Positions 3,902 through 60,005 of a DNA stretch of 64,000 nucleotides are shown piece after piece. This DNA is from Gemmatimonadetes bacterium T265. Lineage in GTDB: Bacteria > Gemmatimonadota > Gemmatimonadetes > Gemmatimonadales > Gemmatimonadaceae. The stretch covers positions 62,001-126,000 of the forward strand of contig BPUI01000004.1 of NCBI GenBank assembly GCA_019973575.1, in the 5' to 3' direction. The translations under genes were made by a program, and so were the position numbers. Within the stretch, counting starts at the first letter, position 1; each line of letters opens with the position of its first letter. The notes beneath the pieces are model-generated. The model was not told the DNA's origin, did no database searches, and saw nothing but the letters and a program-made list of their open reading frames with translations.

Positions 3902-4263
3902 CTAGGCGACCAGCGCCGGCTCGAAGAACAGCGGCCGAGACGCTTCCGGTCCGTGTCCAGCCCGAACGCGGTCCGGCGGTGGACGTACGGCGACACGTTG
4001 CCGGGGAACACCGCGACGAAGAACGCCGCTGACAGCCGCCCGACCGCGGCCCGGCGCTGGCCCCCGGCGAGGACCAGCGCGGCGCCGAGCGCGACCTCGG
4101 CGACGCCGGAGGCGAGCACCGTGACGTCTTTGTCGAGCGGCACCCAGTCCGGCCCCTGCGCCCGGAACGCCCGGCGCGCGACCGTCAGGCGGCCGAGGCC
4201 GGCGAGGACGAGCAGGCCGCCCAGTGCCGTGCCGGCGCCCGTCCGGCGGGTCGGGTCGGGCAT
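3902..4263 (-). pseudogene. DoxX-like membrane protein gene with a C-terminal frameshift
   Basis: The ATG at 4263 opens a small DoxX-like integral membrane protein. Hydrophobic segments include GTALGGLLVLAGLGRLTV and ASGVAEVALGAALVLAGG, followed by FVAVFPGNVSPYVHRRTAFGL, typical of DoxX relatives. After FGLDTDRKRLGR the original frame becomes Ser/Arg-rich and continues for hundreds of codons. One base over, the expected family ending LFFEPALVA followed by TAG (stop at 3902) appears. The shift is near 3930. This is either a recent frameshift or a sequencing error; with one base corrected the protein would be about 120 aa, the usual size. Confidence 0.7.
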
Positions 4264-4379
4264 GGCGCCGTGTGGCCTCGAGCGTTCGTGGCACGTGGGC
4301 GCGTGCGGTGTGCGGCCTCGCGTCGCCGCCCGTGTTGGGCCACTCGTTGGGCCGGGCAACCGCCGGGCCGCCAGGCCCC

Positions 4380-5792
4380 TCAGCCGCTCGCGGCCGACGG
4401 GGCGTACAGGCGGACCGTCACGCGCGCCGGCGGCCCGACGGCGTCCTCCACCACCAGGCGCACCCGGCGCAGCGGGGGCGCCGGCGCGAGCGGCACGAGC
4501 CGCGCGACGCCGACCGTCGTCCCGCGGGCGAGCGGGCGCCACCCGGCGCCGTCGTGCCCGTACAGCGCGAACCGCGCGACGCGCTGGCCGGCGCGTGCCA
4601 CGTCCTCCGCGAGCCGCACCATCCCGACGGGCGTCGCCGCGGGCAGCGCGACGAGCAGTTCGGCCGTCCGCGGACCGGTCGGCCGCCAGGTCGCCCGCGC
4701 GCCCCGGATTTCGGCGGCGTCCAGCGCCGCCCGGCGCGCCCCGAGGCCGGCCAGCCGGGCCACGTCGGTCGGGTGGAACACGCCGTCCCGCGTAGGCGGC
4801 ACGTTGAGCAGCAACTTCGCGTTCCGCCCCACGCTCCCCAGGTAGAGCGCCATCAGGTCGTCGACCGCCCGCACGCGCGCGTCCTCCGCCGGGTGGTAGA
4901 ACCACCCGGGGCGGATCGACACGTCGACCTCCGCGGGGCGCCAGACCGCGCCGAACGGGTCGCCGTGCCGCAGCATCGCGTCCACCGCCGGCCCCGACGC
5001 GCCGGGCGCGGGGACCGCGGCCGGGTCGACGGCGGCCCAGTTCGGGGCGCCCACCTCGCCCCGCTCGTTCCCGCACCAGCGCACGTCGGGACCGGCGTCG
5101 GAGAAGATCACCGCCCCGGGCTGGAGCCGGCGCACGGTGGCGAACACGCGCGGCCAGTCGTACACCTGCCGCCGCCCGGTCGGCCCCTCGCCGTTCGCGC
5201 CGTCGAACCAGACCTCGGCGAGCGGGCCGTAGCGGGTGAGGAGCTCGGCGAGCTGGGCGACATAGACGGCGTTATAGCGCGGCGAGTCGCCGTACGCCGG
5301 GTGGTGGCGGTCCCACGGCGAGCAGTACAGGCCGGGGCGCAGCCCCTCGGCGCGGCACGCGTCCACGAACTCGCGGACGACGTCCCCCGCGCCCCCGCGC
5401 CAGGGGCTGTGCGCGACGGTGTGCGTGGTCGTCGCGCTCGGCCACAGGCAGAAGCCGTCGTGGTGCTTGGCCGTGAGCACCATCGCGCACGCGCCCGCCG
5501 CCCGCGCCGCGCGGGCCCACTGGCGCGCGTCGAGGCGGGCGGGCGCGAACACCGCGGGCGCCTCGCGCCCGTCGCCCCACTCGCGGTCGGTGAACGTGTT
5601 CGGGCCGAAGTGGACGAACAGCGCGAGCTCGTCCTCCTGCCACGCGAGCTGCGCGAGCGAGGGGCGGGCGAGCGCGGCCTTCCCAATGGCGTGTCCCGCC
5701 CCGGGGGCCCGGGACGGCGCCCCGGTCGCGAGCCAGCCGGCGGCGCCCGCCGCGGTCCGGACGAATGTGCGGCGGTCCATGCGCGGATCCAT
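4380..5792 (-). CDS. Alpha-L-fucosidase, GH29, Tat-exported
   Basis: A 470-aa glycoside hydrolase family 29 enzyme releasing alpha-L-fucose from glycans. The N-terminus carries a twin-arginine signal (DRRTFVRTAAGAAGWLATGA, residues 6-25), so export to the periplasm or outside is likely. Family signatures are HFGPNTFTDREWGDG (61-75), KHHDGFCLWPS (109-119), YCSPWDRHHPAYG (156-168) and AEVWFDGANGEG with the catalytic nucleophile Asp at about 197. The last 100 residues look like the usual C-terminal beta-sandwich. Translation could also start at the inner ATG four codons later. It is a stand-alone gene with no sugar transporter next to it. Confidence 0.93.
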   Translation of the reverse strand: MDPRMDRRTFVRTAAGAAGWLATGAPSRAPGAGHAIGKAALARPSLAQLAWQEDELALFVHFGPNTFTDREWGDGREAPAVFAPARLDARQWARAARAAGACAMVLTAKHHDGFCLWPSATTTHTVAHSPWRGGAGDVVREFVDACRAEGLRPGLYCSPWDRHHPAYGDSPRYNAVYVAQLAELLTRYGPLAEVWFDGANGEGPTGRRQVYDWPRVFATVRRLQPGAVIFSDAGPDVRWCGNERGEVGAPNWAAVDPAAVPAPGASGPAVDAMLRHGDPFGAVWRPAEVDVSIRPGWFYHPAEDARVRAVDDLMALYLGSVGRNAKLLLNVPPTRDGVFHPTDVARLAGLGARRAALDAAEIRGARATWRPTGPRTAELLVALPAATPVGMVRLAEDVARAGQRVARFALYGHDGAGWRPLARGTTVGVARLVPLAPAPPLRRVRLVVEDAVGPPARVTVRLYAPSAASG

Positions 5793-24010: not shown

Positions 24011-24979
24011 TCACGTCGCCAGCATCCGACGCATCGCCGCCCGCACGTCCGCGGCGAGCTGCTCGCGCAGTGGGCCGGGGAACAAGTCGAACCCGTGCAC
24101 GCCGCCGTCGTAGACGTGCAACTCGACCGGCACGCCCGCCCGCGACAGCCGCAGCGCGTAGGCGACGCTTTCCTCGAGGAACAAGTCGACCGACCCCACC
24201 GCGATGAAAGCCGGCGACAGCCGCGTCACGTCCGCGGCGAGCGCCGGCGAGTAGTGGCCGCGGCGCTCGGGCGGGATCGCGTCGGGGCCGGCGTCGCCGC
24301 CGAGCGCCCCCCACCCGAATCGGTTCATTGGCCGGGTCCACTGGAAATTCCCGGTCGTCGGGTTGTCGACCGGGGCCGCGGGGGTGCCCGTGCGCGCGTC
24401 GAGCATCGGGTAGATCAGCACCTGTCCCGCGAGGGCGTACACGCCTCGGTCACGCGCGAGCAGCGCGAGCGCGGCGGCAAGCCCGCCGCCCGCGCTGTGG
24501 CCGACGACCGCGATGCGCGACGCGTCGACGCCGAGCGCGTCCGCCTGCGCGACCAGCCAGGTGAGGGCCGCGTAGCAGTCCTCCACCGGCCCGGGAAAGG
24601 GCGTCTCCGGCGCCAGGCGGTAGTCCACCGCGACCACGACGGCCCCGTGCTCGTCGGCGAGCGCGCGGCTGAACGCGTCCATCATGTCGGGCGTGCCGAC
24701 GACGAACCCGCCCCCGTGTAGGTAGAGCACGGCCGGCGCCTTCGCCCCGGCCGGGCGCGTCGCGGCCGGCTGGTAGACGAGGACGCGAACGCCGGGCGCG
24801 CCCGCGGGGCCGGGCACGGTCCGCACCTCGGGCGGGGTCGGCCCGGGCGGGGCCAGCTGCGCGTACGCCGCAAGGACGGCCGACCGAAACTCCGGCAGCG
24901 TGTCGCGGTCGAGGTCGAACGGCGGCGTCTGCGCGACGGCGCCGCGCGCGGCCGAGTCGACCAGGTGGAGCGTCTCCAT
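24011..24979 (-). CDS. Alpha/beta hydrolase of the hormone-sensitive-lipase group
   Basis: A 322-aa esterase or lipase of bacterial family IV. The oxyanion motif is HGGG (residues 88-91), the nucleophile Ser162 is in VVGHSAGGG, YRLAPETPFPG is typical, Asp is in AVGSVDLFLEE and the catalytic His is in GGVHGFDLFPG near the C-terminus. It should hydrolyse short-chain acyl esters in the cytoplasm. The ATG at 24979 gives the usual family length. It stands alone, about 170 nt after the SnoaL gene on the same strand. Confidence 0.94.
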   Translation of the reverse strand: METLHLVDSAARGAVAQTPPFDLDRDTLPEFRSAVLAAYAQLAPPGPTPPEVRTVPGPAGAPGVRVLVYQPAATRPAGAKAPAVLYLHGGGFVVGTPDMMDAFSRALADEHGAVVVAVDYRLAPETPFPGPVEDCYAALTWLVAQADALGVDASRIAVVGHSAGGGLAAALALLARDRGVYALAGQVLIYPMLDARTGTPAAPVDNPTTGNFQWTRPMNRFGWGALGGDAGPDAIPPERRGHYSPALAADVTRLSPAFIAVGSVDLFLEESVAYALRLSRAGVPVELHVYDGGVHGFDLFPGPLREQLAADVRAAMRRMLAT

Positions 24980-25146: not shown

Positions 25147-25533
25147 TCACCCCGCCAACTGGGCCCGGACCGCCGCGTCGTCCAGCACGAACCACATCTC
25201 GGCGATCTTGCCGCCGCGGAACCGGTAGAACGCGAGCTCCTGCGTCGTGAACGAGCGGCCGGTCGGCCCGATCCCGAGCCACGTGCCCCGCGGCGTGCCG
25301 GTATCCGTTAGGCGGACCGCGACGGTGTCGTGGGTCGCGACCAGATCCTCGACCTCCCAGCGGAAGTCGGGCACCGCGGCGATGTTCGACGCGATCGCGC
25401 CGGCGTAGTCCGCCAGCGACGTCACCGCGCCGTTGAACCGGAGCGGGTCGTGCACGAACTCGCCGAGTTCGCCGAGGCGTCGGTCGTTGCAGAGCGCGAG
25501 GTAGCGCCGCCAGACGTCTTCCAAACCAGCCAT
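25147..25533 (-). CDS. SnoaL-like ester-cyclase-type NTF2-fold protein
   Basis: A 128-aa protein: VWRRYLALCNDRRLGELGEF, FVHDPLRFNG, then VAVRLTDTGTPRGTWLGIGP, and the ending ELAFYRFRGGKIAEMWFVLD. This is the complete SnoaL/ester-cyclase pattern with the usual short length. Its role may be cyclase, isomerase or binding protein. The gene is divergent from the broken XRE regulator at 25693. Confidence 0.87.
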   Translation of the reverse strand: MAGLEDVWRRYLALCNDRRLGELGEFVHDPLRFNGAVTSLADYAGAIASNIAAVPDFRWEVEDLVATHDTVAVRLTDTGTPRGTWLGIGPTGRSFTTQELAFYRFRGGKIAEMWFVLDDAAVRAQLAG

Positions 25534-25692: not shown

Positions 25693-26100
25693 ATGCGCGT
25701 ACTTGCCATCTCTCCACTCCTCCCGCGTGCGGACTGGAGCCGCGCGACCGAGCAGGTCGCGGCTCGAGCCGACGCCGATCCAGACGTCGGCTCGGACGTC
25801 GGGCGGCGCCGCGCCCTCGGGCAGTTCCTGCGCGCGAGGCGCTCGCGCCTCGCGCCGGCGCTGGCGGCGCTACCCCACGCACATCCTGCGGGCAGCCGTC
25901 GCCGGCGCACACCCGGGCTGCGCCGCAAGGAGGTGGCCGAGCGCGCCGGCGTGAGCGTGGCCTGGTACACCTGGATCCACCTGGATCGAGCAGGGGCGCG
26001 ATGTGCGCACCTCGGCCGCCACGCTCGGCCGAGTAGCCGACGCGCTCCAGCTCGCGGCGGCCGACCGCGCCTACGTCGCGGAGGTGTGTACGCGCTGCCC
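25693..26100 (+). pseudogene. XRE/MmyB regulator broken by a 10-bp tandem duplication and truncated
   Basis: The N-terminus is a typical MmyB-group HTH: RRRALGQFLRARRSRL, RRRTPGLRRKEVAERAGVSVAWYTW. At 25968-25987 the decamer CACCTGGATC stands twice in tandem. Removing one copy joins WYTW to IEQGRDVRTSAATLGRVAD, the family consensus, which now lies in the next frame. The regulator sequence ends at about 26100, where an ISL3-type transposase end begins, so the ligand-binding half is gone. It is divergent from the SnoaL gene at 25533, which it may once have controlled. Confidence 0.75.
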
Positions 26101-26387
26101 GGCGCTGGCGGAGGCGCGCGCGCTTGCGCACGGCTTCCGCCGCATGCTCCGCGAGCACGACAGGGCCGCGTTCCTGCCCTGGCTCGCCGCGGCGCACCGG
26201 AGCGTGCTCGAGCCGTTCGTGCGCGGCTTGCGCTACGACGTCGAAGCGGTGTACGCGGGCGTCGCCCTGCCCTGGTGCCAGGGGCAGGTCGAGGGCCAGG
26301 TGCACCGCCTCAAGTTGCTGAAGCGCAGCATGTACAGGACGGGCGAGCTTCGCCCCGCTCAGGCAGCGCATGCTCGCCGCGGCGTGA
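26090..26387 (+). mobile_element. ISL3-family transposase remnant (C-terminal end)
   Basis: In the frame that continues the broken regulator, residues read GFRRMLREHDRAAF, LEPFVRGLRYDVEAVYAG, then GQVEGQVHRLKLLKRSMY, the conserved C-terminal block of ISL3 transposases. After MY the frame slips: dropping one A at about 26336 gives GRASFAPLRQRMLAAA and a stop at 26385-26387, the usual ending. Only about 95 of more than 400 residues remain. It is inactive and forms a chimeric frame with the regulator. Confidence 0.75.
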
Positions 26388-26462
26388 GCGGGCCCCCTGG
26401 AGTTGCCCCGCTGAAACGGACGCCTCGATAAGCTCTGCTATGCTGCAGGGCGGAGGTGGACG

Positions 26463-26789
26463 ATGGCGGGAGAGCCGAAGACGCGGCGCGCGTTCAGTGC
26501 CGAATTCAAGATCGAAGCGTTGCGCCGGATGGCGGAGCGGCGCGCAGCCGGGGTGTCGCTGAAGCAGATCGGCCGCGAGCTGGATGTACGAGACGACCTG
26601 CTGCGGAAGTGGCAGCGCCAAGCCAAGGAGCGCGCCGGGGCGCCGCCCGCCGACGTGTTCCCCGGGCAGGGGCGGTTGCCGGCGGACGAGGCCGAGTTGA
26701 AGCGCCTGGAACGGGAGAACGCGCGGCTGAAGCAGGAGGTCGCGTTTCTAAAAACCGCGGCGGTGTACTTCGCGAGGGAGTCGCGGTGA
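26463..26789 (+). CDS. IS3-family transposase OrfA
   Basis: A 108-aa DNA-binding subunit. It has the HTH_Tnp_1 domain (RAFSAEFKIEALRRMAER, GVSLKQIGRELDVRDDLLRKW) and a C-terminal leucine-zipper helix (LKRLERENARLKQEVAFLKTAA) used for multimerisation with OrfAB. Its stop codon overlaps the GTG of orfB (GTGA at 26786-26789). Confidence 0.93.
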   Translation: MAGEPKTRRAFSAEFKIEALRRMAERRAAGVSLKQIGRELDVRDDLLRKWQRQAKERAGAPPADVFPGQGRLPADEAELKRLERENARLKQEVAFLKTAAVYFARESR

Positions 26790-27676
26790 GCGACAAGTAC
26801 GCCGTGATCGCGGCCGAGCGCGGGACGTACCCCGTGCGATGGATGTGCGCGCTGTTGGGCGTGAGCGTGGCCGGCTTCTACGGCGCACAGCGCCGGCCGC
26901 CGGGCACGCGCGCCGCCGCGGACGAGCGGGTGCGGGTGGAGGTGCGCGCCGCACACGCGAAGAGTCACCGGCGCTACGGGGCGCCGCGAGTGCATCGCGA
27001 GCTGCGCGCGGCCGGCGTACGCGTCGCCAAGAAGCGCGTCGCGCGGCTCATGCGCGAGGACGGCCTCGTGGCGCGCCGCGCGCAGCGCCGCGTACGCACG
27101 ACCGACTCGGCGCATGCGCACCCGGTCGCGCCGAACGTGGTGGCGCGCGACTTCGCGGTCGCGGACCAGCCCGGGCTCGACCGCGTTTGGGTCGCCGATT
27201 TCACGTACATCCCCACGCGCGAGGGCTGGCTGTTCCTGGCGGTCGTGCTCGACCTGGCGAGCCGCCGCGTGGTGGGGTGGGCGGTGCGCGAGACGATGGA
27301 GACCGAGCTCGTGCTCGCGGCCCTGCATGCGGCGCTCGCCGACCGGCGCCCCGCGCCCGGGCTCGTGTGTCACTCGGATCGTGGGTCGCAATACGCGAGC
27401 GCGGCCTACCAGGTGCTGCTCGCTGCGTCTGGCGCGGTGCCGAGCATGAGCGCAAAAGGCGATTGCTACGATAATGCTGTTGCCGAGGCCTTCTTCGCGA
27501 CGCTCGAACACGAGCTACTGGCTGATGTCACCTTCGTGTCGCGCGCGGCGGCGCGGCCCGCGATCTTCGACTTCCTCTTCTGGTACAACGGCGAGCGGCG
27601 CCACTCGAGCCTCGACTACGTGAGTCCCGTCGCCTATGAGCAGCACCTGACCGCGCGCCCCGCGCGAGCAGCCTAA
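26786..27676 (+). CDS. IS3-family transposase OrfB (DDE integrase core)
   Basis: A 296-aa catalytic subunit. The N-terminal HTH_21 region has RYGAPRVHRELRAAGVRVAKKRVARLM. The rve integrase core shows the three acidic residues: Asp in RVWVADFTYIP, Asp in VCHSDRGSQYAS and Glu in NAVAEAFFATLEHE, with the following WYNGERRHSSLDYVSP. As in other IS3 members, a functional OrfAB fusion might form by frameshifting, but here the four-base overlap GTGA would also permit coupled re-initiation. Confidence 0.94.
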   Translation: MSDKYAVIAAERGTYPVRWMCALLGVSVAGFYGAQRRPPGTRAAADERVRVEVRAAHAKSHRRYGAPRVHRELRAAGVRVAKKRVARLMREDGLVARRAQRRVRTTDSAHAHPVAPNVVARDFAVADQPGLDRVWVADFTYIPTREGWLFLAVVLDLASRRVVGWAVRETMETELVLAALHAALADRRPAPGLVCHSDRGSQYASAAYQVLLAASGAVPSMSAKGDCYDNAVAEAFFATLEHELLADVTFVSRAAARPAIFDFLFWYNGERRHSSLDYVSPVAYEQHLTARPARAA

Positions 27677-27947
27677 ACTCCGCGTCCGTTCCTCGGGGTC
27701 AGCTCCACCGTAAGTCCAACCCTCCATCATTGCGTCAGCAAGTTCGGCCATGAGCCCGCTTTCGCCCGCCATTGACACTGACCCCCCGGCGCGGATCGTT
27801 TGCGCCCACTCCGGCGCCCCCACGCGCGGCGTCTAGGGGTCACCGCACTCTCGCGGCGGAGCACGCGGGACGCAAAGCCGCAGGCGTGTGCCGCGTCCGG
27901 CGGTTACGCTGTGCCCGCGTGAGGTCTCGACGGTCACAGGGGGAGCC

Positions 27948-28754
27948 ATGCAGAAGCCGCCGTTGGAGGAACGCAAGGCACTCGGCGCGTTCGTGGCGCG
28001 CCGGAGGCGCCAGTTACCGCCGGCGGACTTCGGCCTGCCGACCGGGCGGCGGCGTACGCCCGGGCTGCGGCGCGAGGAGGTCGCGGTCCTCACCGGCGTC
28101 AGCGTGAGCTGGTATACGTGGCTGGAGCAGGGGCGCGACATCTGGGTGTCGGCCGCCACGCTCCGACGGCTCGCCGGCGTCCTGCGGCTCAGCAGGGTCG
28201 AGACGGAACACCTGCTCGCCCTGGCGTCGCGGCAGCCGGTACGCGTGGCGGCCGACGAGGCAGCCATCGACACGCTCGTCGAGCTCGTCCAGGCCGTCGA
28301 CCCCGTGCCCGCCTACGTCCGCAACGCGCGCCTCGACATCCTCGCGTGGAACCCGGCGGTCGCGGACCTCCTCGCCGACTACGGCGCGCTCGCGCCGCAC
28401 GAGCGCAACACGCTCTGGCTGGCGTTCCTCCATCCGCCCTACCGCACGCTGATCCGCGACTGGGAGCAGTTCGCGCGCGGCACCCTCCGCGTCTTCTCCG
28501 CGGCCCGCGCCCGGGCGGCGGACAAAGCCCCGTTCGACCGCCTGGTCGAGGAGATCGGCGCCAAGAGCGCCGAATTCCGGGCGTGGTGGCCCGAGGGCGG
28601 GGTGCAGGAGTTCGAGGAGGGCATCAAGCGGCTGCGCCACCCCGCGCGTGGCCTGATCGATCTCACCTACGTGGCGCTGACGCCCGAGGGGCGCCCGGAC
28701 CTGTCGCTGGTGACCTACCTCCCGCGGCCCGGAGGGGGGGACCCGGCGTCATAG
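27948..28754 (+). CDS. XRE-type regulator with MmyB ligand-binding domain
   Basis: A 268-aa regulator starting at the ATG at 27948 after GGGGGAG. The DNA-binding half reads LGAFVARRRRQLPPADFGLP, TPGLRREEVAVLTGVSVSWYTWLEQGRD, then SAATLRRLAGVLRLS. The second half has the complete MmyB-type core: ILAWNPAVADLLADYGALAP, RNTLWLAFLHPPYRTLIRDWE, and the ending DLSLVTYLPRPG. It lies about 100 nt before the SDR gene at 28851 on the same strand. It is intact, unlike the related fragment at 25693, and may regulate the SDR/DJ-1 genes downstream. Confidence 0.94.
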   Translation: MQKPPLEERKALGAFVARRRRQLPPADFGLPTGRRRTPGLRREEVAVLTGVSVSWYTWLEQGRDIWVSAATLRRLAGVLRLSRVETEHLLALASRQPVRVAADEAAIDTLVELVQAVDPVPAYVRNARLDILAWNPAVADLLADYGALAPHERNTLWLAFLHPPYRTLIRDWEQFARGTLRVFSAARARAADKAPFDRLVEEIGAKSAEFRAWWPEGGVQEFEEGIKRLRHPARGLIDLTYVALTPEGRPDLSLVTYLPRPGGGDPAS

Positions 28755-28850: not shown

Positions 28851-29708
28851 ATGCAAACCGTCTTGATCACCGGCGCGGGCACGGGCTTCGGCAACGAGGC
28901 GGCGATGCGGCTGGCCGAGAAGGGGTTCGACGTCATCGCCGCGGTCCAGATCTACGCCCAGGTCGAGGCGCTGGAGCGCCAGGCCAAGGACCGCGGCGTC
29001 GCCGTCCGCGTCGAGAAGCTCGACGTGACGCACAGCGGCGACCGCCGGAAGGCGCTGCGGTGGGACGTGGAGATCCTCGTCAACAACGCGGGCGTGCTGG
29101 AGGGCGGGTCGGTGCTCGACATCCCCGGCGCGAACATGCGGCACGAGTTCGAGGTGAACGTGGTCGGCCCGCTCCTGCTGACGCAGGGGATCGCCAAGCA
29201 GATGGTCCGGCGCGGGCGGGGCCGGATCGTCTGGGTGTCGTCGCGCGAGGGGCTGAACGTCAACCCGTTCACCGGCCTCTACTCGGCCTCCAAGCACGCG
29301 ATCGAGGCGATCGCCCAGACGATGAGCCTCGAGCTCCAGGAGTTCGGCGTCGAGGTCGCGACCGTCAACCCCGGCCCCTTCCTCACCGGGTTCAACGACC
29401 GCGGGTTCGACACGTGGCAGAGCTGGGAGGACGACCCGGCGGAGCGGCTCTACGACTACGCCCGGCTGGCGTTCCCCCGCGCGCAGTTCGACCCGGAACC
29501 CGTCTACGCCACGCTGACCGCGGTCGCGGCCGGGGAGGTGGACTCCTTCCGAAACCTCGAGCCCACGTCGATGATCGACGAGACGAAGGCCAACATCGAC
29601 AAGGTCTGGACCAAGAAGACCCGGGACGGCCTGGGCACGCGCCCGCCCGAGCTCCAGCAGTCGTACGCCATGCGGCCGGAGACCTCGGCCGGTCCGGCCC
29701 CCGCGTGA
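28851..29708 (+). CDS. SDR oxidoreductase
   Basis: A 285-aa SDR preceded by AGGAGAG. Motifs are VLITGAGTGFGNEAA (cofactor), VNNAGVLEGG, IVWVSSREGLN and LYSASKHAIEAIAQ (catalytic Tyr and Lys), then TVNPGPFLTGFND. Residues 190-285 extend beyond the core and end SAGPAPA. It follows the MmyB-type regulator and precedes the DJ-1/PfpI gene by 84 nt on the same strand. Substrate unknown. Confidence 0.93.
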   Translation: MQTVLITGAGTGFGNEAAMRLAEKGFDVIAAVQIYAQVEALERQAKDRGVAVRVEKLDVTHSGDRRKALRWDVEILVNNAGVLEGGSVLDIPGANMRHEFEVNVVGPLLLTQGIAKQMVRRGRGRIVWVSSREGLNVNPFTGLYSASKHAIEAIAQTMSLELQEFGVEVATVNPGPFLTGFNDRGFDTWQSWEDDPAERLYDYARLAFPRAQFDPEPVYATLTAVAAGEVDSFRNLEPTSMIDETKANIDKVWTKKTRDGLGTRPPELQQSYAMRPETSAGPAPA

Positions 29709-52361: not shown

Positions 52362-52530
52362 CGCCGTTGGGGGCGGTTAGGGGGCGCTCAGGGGAGGCGC
52401 TCCGGGCGAGTCGGCCCGGCGGAAGGTTACGACGGCACTACGCGCGGCGCCGAGGGGCACGCCGACGAGACGTGCGCGAAGTCGCGCGACGGCGGTCGCG
52501 CCGCGGGCCGACGGTCGTCCGGTCGACGCG
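52362..52530. other. Spacer before the minisatellite
   Basis: This holds the upstream region of the UPF0178 gene (ATG at 52361) and a GGTTAGGG string at 52375. No gene is recognised; together with the minisatellite it forms a 490-base gap before the small gene at 52850. Confidence 0.3.
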
Positions 52531-52740
52531 GCAGGCGGCGCGGCAGGCGGCGCGGCAGGCGGCGCGGCAGGCGGCGCGGCAGGCGGCGCGGCAGGCGGCG
52601 CGGCAGGCGGCGCGGCAGGCGGCGCGGCAGGCGGCGCGGCAGGCGGCGCGGCAGGCGGCGCGGCAGGCGGCGCGGCAGGCGGCGCGGCAGGCGGCGCGGC
52701 AGGCGGCGCGGCAGGCGGCGCGGCAGGCGGCGCGGCAGGC
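52531..52740. repeat. 12-bp tandem repeat, about 17.5 perfect copies
   Basis: The unit GCAGGCGGCGCG is repeated head to tail over 210 bases with no visible variation. All six frames are open across it (Arg-Gln-Ala-Ala, Arg-Arg-Arg-Gly, Pro-Ala-Ala-Pro and so on), so it is not evidence for a protein. Perfect identity between copies implies recent slippage expansion. Confidence 0.95.
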
Positions 52741-58709: not shown

Positions 58710-59768
58710 ATGACCGCCAACCCGCCGCCGCCCGCACCACCGGCTGACGTCACGTCGCCCGAGCCGGGCCACCCGATGGCCGTGGTGGTTACGCGGACCG
58801 GTGCGTCGGAGCACCTCTTGCGGATGTGGGAACGGCGGTACGGGGCGGTCACCCCCACGCGCGGCGAGGGCGGCCACCGCCGGTACTCGGACGCCGACAT
58901 CCTGCGCGTGCGCCTCCTCCAGGCGGTCACGCGCGCCGGCCGCCCGATCCGGCAGGTAGCCCGCCTTTCGACCGACGCCCTGGCCCGGATGGCCGCGGAC
59001 GATGCGGCGGCGCAGGGTGGGCCACCCGCCGAGGTGCCGCCGGCCGCGGCTGCCGAGCCGGGCGACGTGGTGGGGCAGGCGATGGCCCTGACCTGGGCGC
59101 TGAATGCCCCCGCGCTCGACGCCGTGCTCCGCCGCGCCGCCGCCCGGTTCGGCGTGCCCGCGTTCCTGGACCAGGTCGTCGCGCCGCTCGTGCGTGCGGT
59201 CGACCAGGCGTGGCAGGCGGGGCACGTCAGCCTGGTGCAGGAGCGCCTCGTCGCGTCGACCACGCACGACCTGCTCGTCGAGACCATGCGGGCGCTGGCG
59301 CGCGTGCACGCGGCGGAGCGCCTCGTGCTTGCCACCGCGCCCGGCGTGCCTGGCGGACAGGGGGGAGACCGCGACCGGTACGCGCCCGGCGTATCGGCGG
59401 TCGAGGCGGCGGCGGCCGGGGCCGCGGCCGCCGCCGACGGCTGGGCGGTGGTGTACCTCGGTCCCGACCTGCCTGCGGGCGAGGTCGCGGCGGTGGCCGC
59501 CGCCACCGCGGCACGCGCCGTGGCGGTGCACGCGCCCGGATACCTCGCCGCCGCCGGCGACGACGACCGCGCGCGGGTCGCCGACGCGGTGCGGGTGCTC
59601 CGCGCCCGGCTCCCGGCCGCGGTGCCGGTGCTGGTGGGCGGGGCGGGCGCGCCGGCCCTCGGCGCGGCCATCGCGGGCCCGGGCGTCCGCGTCGGCGCGG
59701 GCTGGGCCGACCTCCGCGCGGGGCTGGATGCCACCCTCGGGCCTGTCACCCCCCCGCCCACGCGGTAA
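58710..59768 (+). CDS. MerR-family regulator with degenerate B12-binding fold (CarA/CarH-like)
   Basis: A 352-aa protein. The MerR wing-HTH is ASEHLLRMWERRYGAVTPTR, GGHRRYSDADILRVRLLQAV (about 30-75). A four-helix B12-cap domain follows (VDQAWQAGHVSLVQERL), then a Rossmann-like domain (GWAVVYLGPDLPAGEVAAVA). In photoreceptors of the CarH type the cap has Trp-x9-Glu-His and the Rossmann part Asp-x-His-x-x-Gly. Here Glu-Arg and Asp-Leu-Pro-Ala-Gly stand instead, so cobalamin binding is doubtful. It is divergent from the fasciclin gene and probably controls it. Confidence 0.88.
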   Translation: MTANPPPPAPPADVTSPEPGHPMAVVVTRTGASEHLLRMWERRYGAVTPTRGEGGHRRYSDADILRVRLLQAVTRAGRPIRQVARLSTDALARMAADDAAAQGGPPAEVPPAAAAEPGDVVGQAMALTWALNAPALDAVLRRAAARFGVPAFLDQVVAPLVRAVDQAWQAGHVSLVQERLVASTTHDLLVETMRALARVHAAERLVLATAPGVPGGQGGDRDRYAPGVSAVEAAAAGAAAAADGWAVVYLGPDLPAGEVAAVAAATAARAVAVHAPGYLAAAGDDDRARVADAVRVLRARLPAAVPVLVGGAGAPALGAAIAGPGVRVGAGWADLRAGLDATLGPVTPPPTR

Positions 59769-60005
59769 GGGCGCGGTAAGGGCAACGCCGCCCCGCGGGC
59801 CGTGGCCGCCCTAGGCCGCCCAACCCGCCACCTGGTGGGGCAGTACGCACGAGTGGAGACGTGCCACGCGCCGGCCACTTCGGGTGGAGCCCGCCGGCCC
59901 TGTGGTCGTCGGCAGCGCGACTCGGGCTACTGCGCGTCGAGCCCCCCCGTTCCGGCGCTCGCGAGCCGCCGTCGTTCCGCCCAGCAGCCTGTCCGAAGCC
60001 CCGTG

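Follow-up and report, generated by a model that had tools for sequence, protein, structure and literature searches.

What kind of gene lies between positions 25693 and 26387 of the window (the whole stretch of 64,000 nucleotides of Gemmatimonadetes bacterium T265 DNA analysed here)? A sequence-only reading had proposed two decayed gene pieces next to a complete IS3 copy, and on this the alignments and the profile searches agree. Very probably, the locus is a decayed chimaera, produced in an IS-rich contig by an illegitimate join that linked a regulator gene to an ISL3 transposase tail, plus frameshifts. Dead genes of this sort are unremarkable. The locus clearly illustrates, on a small scale, how genes decay where several IS elements share a contig, and it matters little beyond annotation, where a gene finder could call an unreal protein of 289 aa or 142 aa. 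The features are the following.

24011-24979, minus strand: alpha/beta hydrolase gene, divergent from the broken regulator
25147-25533, minus strand: SnoaL-like gene, divergent from the broken regulator
25804-25977, plus strand: N-terminal part of an XRE/MmyB-type regulator, with a partial HTH_31 domain (HTH_31 profile, protein alignment)
25968-25987, plus strand: frame-shifting tandem duplication, two copies of the decamer CACCTGGATC (repeat scan, DNA alignment, 20-mer count)
25988-26053, plus strand: remainder of the regulator helix-turn-helix region (alignment with ten regulators, DNA alignment with two)
26045-26080, plus strand: junction zone, where the regulator-like part overlaps the ISL3-like part (base matches over 36 bases)
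26060-26387, plus strand: C-terminal remnant of an ISL3 transposase, last ~110 codons (NF033550 profile, DNA alignment)
26398-27707, plus strand: IS3-family element of 1310 bp (domain profiles, copy comparison)
26463-26789, plus strand: orfA of the IS3 element (HTH_Tnp_1)
Frame ending at 27676, plus strand: orfB of the IS3 element (rve)
27948-28754, plus strand: intact MmyB-type regulator, downstream (MLTR_LBD, E 2.4e-44; HTH_31, E 1.1e-11)
28851-29708: short-chain dehydrogenase gene, downstream

The regulator piece and the duplicated decamer

The regulator frame opens at the ATG at 25693, and likeness to its relatives starts at residue 16 to 42, depending on the relative. The HTH_31 profile matches P0002 (25693-26004) over positions 1-34 of 64 (E 0.0012, 19.5 bits), below the cut-off of 27, which is thus not reached in a single frame. 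Identity to the intact regulator at 27948-28754 is 55% over 58 residues; that gene serves as a comparison and is not the missing half. Past the decamer, regulator sequence runs on to about 26053 in the frame of the ORF 26003-26431, and the likeness stops where the helix-turn-helix ends, near 26050. The piece resembles MmyB-like (MLTR) regulators (HTH_31 plus PF17765) in its N-terminal helix-turn-helix, with 45-60% identity, depending on the alignment, to two intact regulators of the same genome. In contrast to them, the copy described here is interrupted by the 10-bp duplication and lacks the ligand-binding domain, since a genome-wide profile search places no PF17765 match at 25693-26387. Before its decay, the broken regulator may have controlled the two divergent genes.

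The exact duplication claimed at 25968-25987 is indeed present, and a count of the duplicated 20-mer across the 5.63-Mb genome gives a single occurrence. The further claim that the extra copy breaks the regulator is borne out by DNA alignments with two intact MmyB-type regulators that this genome also encodes, both of which (2/2) open a net gap of 10 bases at the decamer. The corresponding region is uninterrupted in all ten regulator loci aligned, as it was in the seven loci (six genes) of an earlier set; these loci, among which L022 and L053 are one gene, were picked by a motif with normal spacing and none of those given was dropped (7/7, 10/10), so that a relative bearing an insertion would go unreported. 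The broken copy has one more difference, a gap of 5-6 residues before an RRTPG-like stretch in 9/9 non-self alignment rows (seven genes).

An exact period-10 repeat alone is not rare in the GC-rich sequence of this window: 0.45 are expected per window from 40 first-order Markov simulations, and exact tandem repeats of period 8-60 number 12 in the window versus 6.3 in the simulations. The decamer is therefore read as an insertion relative to the relatives on account of the 10-base gap that the aligned regulators need, and not on account of the repeat alone. A chance repeat as the sole account was rejected because the aligned relatives do not have those ten bases, and a hairpin-driven duplication was rejected as well, given that the DNA fold of 25940-26010 is not unusual (z 0.50). 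The duplication probably arose by replication slippage. Elsewhere in the window, an exact 12-bp tandem array (unit CGCGGCAGGCGG, ~18 copies, 214 bp) occupies 52527-52740, and a second exact tandem duplication, of period 11, is found at 59761-59783.

The ISL3 tail

An ISL3 transposase C-terminus with a 1-base lesion near 26336 had also been claimed, and both are found. The tail matches NF033550 over profile positions 253-355 of 370 (E 1.2e-16; residues 16-111 of P0001, the 142-aa product of the ORF 26003-26431), and from 26060 its DNA is 77% identical to a complete ISL3 gene elsewhere in this genome (aligned part G000:C4:141311-141633). Relative to that gene it carries one extra base at 26336, beyond which the ISL3 ending lies in the third frame and reaches its natural stop, TGA, at 26385-26387. 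The locus thus shares with ISL3-family transposases the last ~110 codons through the natural stop, but is a remnant without the front part and with one frameshift, scoring 60.8 bits against the NCBIfam cut-off of 180 and so falling short of a full-length ISL3 transposase. The Pfam DDE_Tnp_ISL3 profile gives 13.1 bits (E 0.081), under its cut-off of 23.

Differences between the tail and the intact gene number 22/12/32 at first, second and third codon positions (92 codons), and those between the regulator piece and two regulators 12/10/19 (47 codons) and 16/13/25 (50 codons); control gene pairs lean less towards the third position (37/32/45 over 109 codons and 31/32/36 over 89 codons). Although these differences are unpolarised and the pairs vary in distance, the lean fits a gene that first diverged under selection and decayed recently.

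Relative to the relatives, the decamer duplication and the single inserted base near the ISL3 end both shift the frame. Faulty assembly could account for either indel, and a reading in which the duplication, and perhaps the extra base too, arose by faulty sequencing or assembly gains from the finding that a search of 149 genomes, with three candidates scored in each, turned up no second one with the locus for comparison. We nevertheless consider this reading unlikely: the usual error is of the homopolymer type and not an exact 10-bp tandem copy, a protection that does not extend to the single extra base. Even if both indels were errors the chimaera would stay, still lacking the ligand-binding half and the front of the transposase.

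The join and its reading frames

The requested alignments with intact MmyB-type and ISL3 homologs support the two-piece reading. Nine ISL3 loci were given for alignment, of which L078, L083, L059 and L063 were dropped for failing the pattern; a pattern search of a collection of genome contigs returned at least five ISL3 relatives. Over the 36 bases of the junction zone there are 16-23 matches to each of ten regulators and 21-23 to each of five ISL3 genes. Regulator-ISL3 pairs, placed in register manually, are more alike here than at most in-frame offsets, though weakly so (median fraction 0.072; 9/50 pairs at or below 0.01). We suggest that illegitimate recombination, such as a deletion, brought the helix-turn-helix end up against the ISL3 tail, and that the MmyB-type regulator would have lost its ligand-binding half in the same event. 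The join is in register and may possibly have used a short stretch common to both gene kinds; it cannot be placed exactly, because the direct parents were not found.

The claim that one frame turns from regulator into ISL3 transposase holds if the duplication is disregarded, but not for the real frame: 25693-26562 (289 aa) reads neither the remainder of the regulator nor the ISL3 tail, and its residues after the decamer are unrelated. The tail is missing from it because the ISL3 part is in the frame of the ORF 26003-26431, which also carries the regulator remainder, and the last codons are in the third frame. A single actual open frame bearing both pieces thus does not exist. The locus as it stands should yield neither a working regulator nor a working transposase.

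Apart from the window itself, no match spanning both pieces was found in 149 genomes including its own, with three candidates scored in each. In protein searches covering 179 genomes of the family, again including its own, the regulator piece has matches in 4 and the ISL3 tail in 7, and no match spans both. Plasmid records match in 70 cases, with neither a spanning match nor 80% query coverage among the 20 listed of these 70, and viral contigs hold no relative of either piece and no copy of the duplicated 20-mer. That a helix-turn-helix-ISL3 fusion once worked as an in-frame protein, a transposon-derived regulator that decayed later, is hardly credible, for while the join is in register but for two indels and substitutions lean to third codon positions, no spanning match is among those listed for the genomes and plasmids searched, the tail holds the transposase end only, and the register may stem from a stretch that both genes share there, or arise by chance in one case out of three.

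A search elsewhere for the missing ligand-binding half had been proposed. Across this genome it returned three MLTR_LBD matches, none of them orphaned: the three open frames concerned (285-435 aa) all bear the regulator front as well. ISL3 matches in the genome number four, and contig C4 carries all of them: a complete gene, one with an internal TGA (G000:C4:188340-189887), a tail beside another IS3, and 26060-26387. None of these four is an orphan front half, in a search that can miss short pieces.

The neighbouring IS3 element and other IS copies

The complete IS3 copy claimed alongside is present at 26398-27707, begins ten bases past the ISL3 stop, and is identical to other copies; at least nine identical 1310-bp copies occur in the genome, which suggests recent spread. 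With IS3-family insertion sequences it shares an orfA with HTH_Tnp_1, an orfB with rve, inverted, related ends beginning TGGAG and the nine identical copies, while orfA alone scores 43.3 bits on the NCBIfam IS3 model, below the whole-protein cut-off of 160. Plasmid records match the element in 116 cases, none covering 80% of it.

An exact 3-bp target repeat flanks 5/9 copies. The copy at 26398-27707 departs from the family in having none (CCC on the left, CCG on the right); three more identical copies, in L010, L011 and L015, are also without one. Among these four, no left and right 3-bp flanks match as partners, and the DNA to the right of the IS3 element occurs nowhere else in the genome. 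Because the target repeat is lacking, adjoining DNA has probably been removed or rearranged, perhaps together with the right end of the ISL3 element. ISL3 elements have terminal inverted repeats and 8-bp target repeats. Of the 125 inverted repeats that surround the intact ISL3 gene, the 25 longest include no clear pair, and at 26060-26387 there is the gene tail alone.

The intact ISL3 gene (4019-5638) belongs to an IS cluster at 4019-8002 of L009 (G000:C4:136000-149000). A second, opposed ISL3 gene in this cluster, whose tail is the third of the four ISL3 matches, is interrupted by a further copy of the identical IS3, flanked by the target repeat TAG. Its middle piece lies across the IS3 copy (41% identity over 83 residues) and went unlisted in the search, hence short ISL3 remnants can escape it. 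Given this middle piece and the TAG repeat, the gene was split by a plain insertion.
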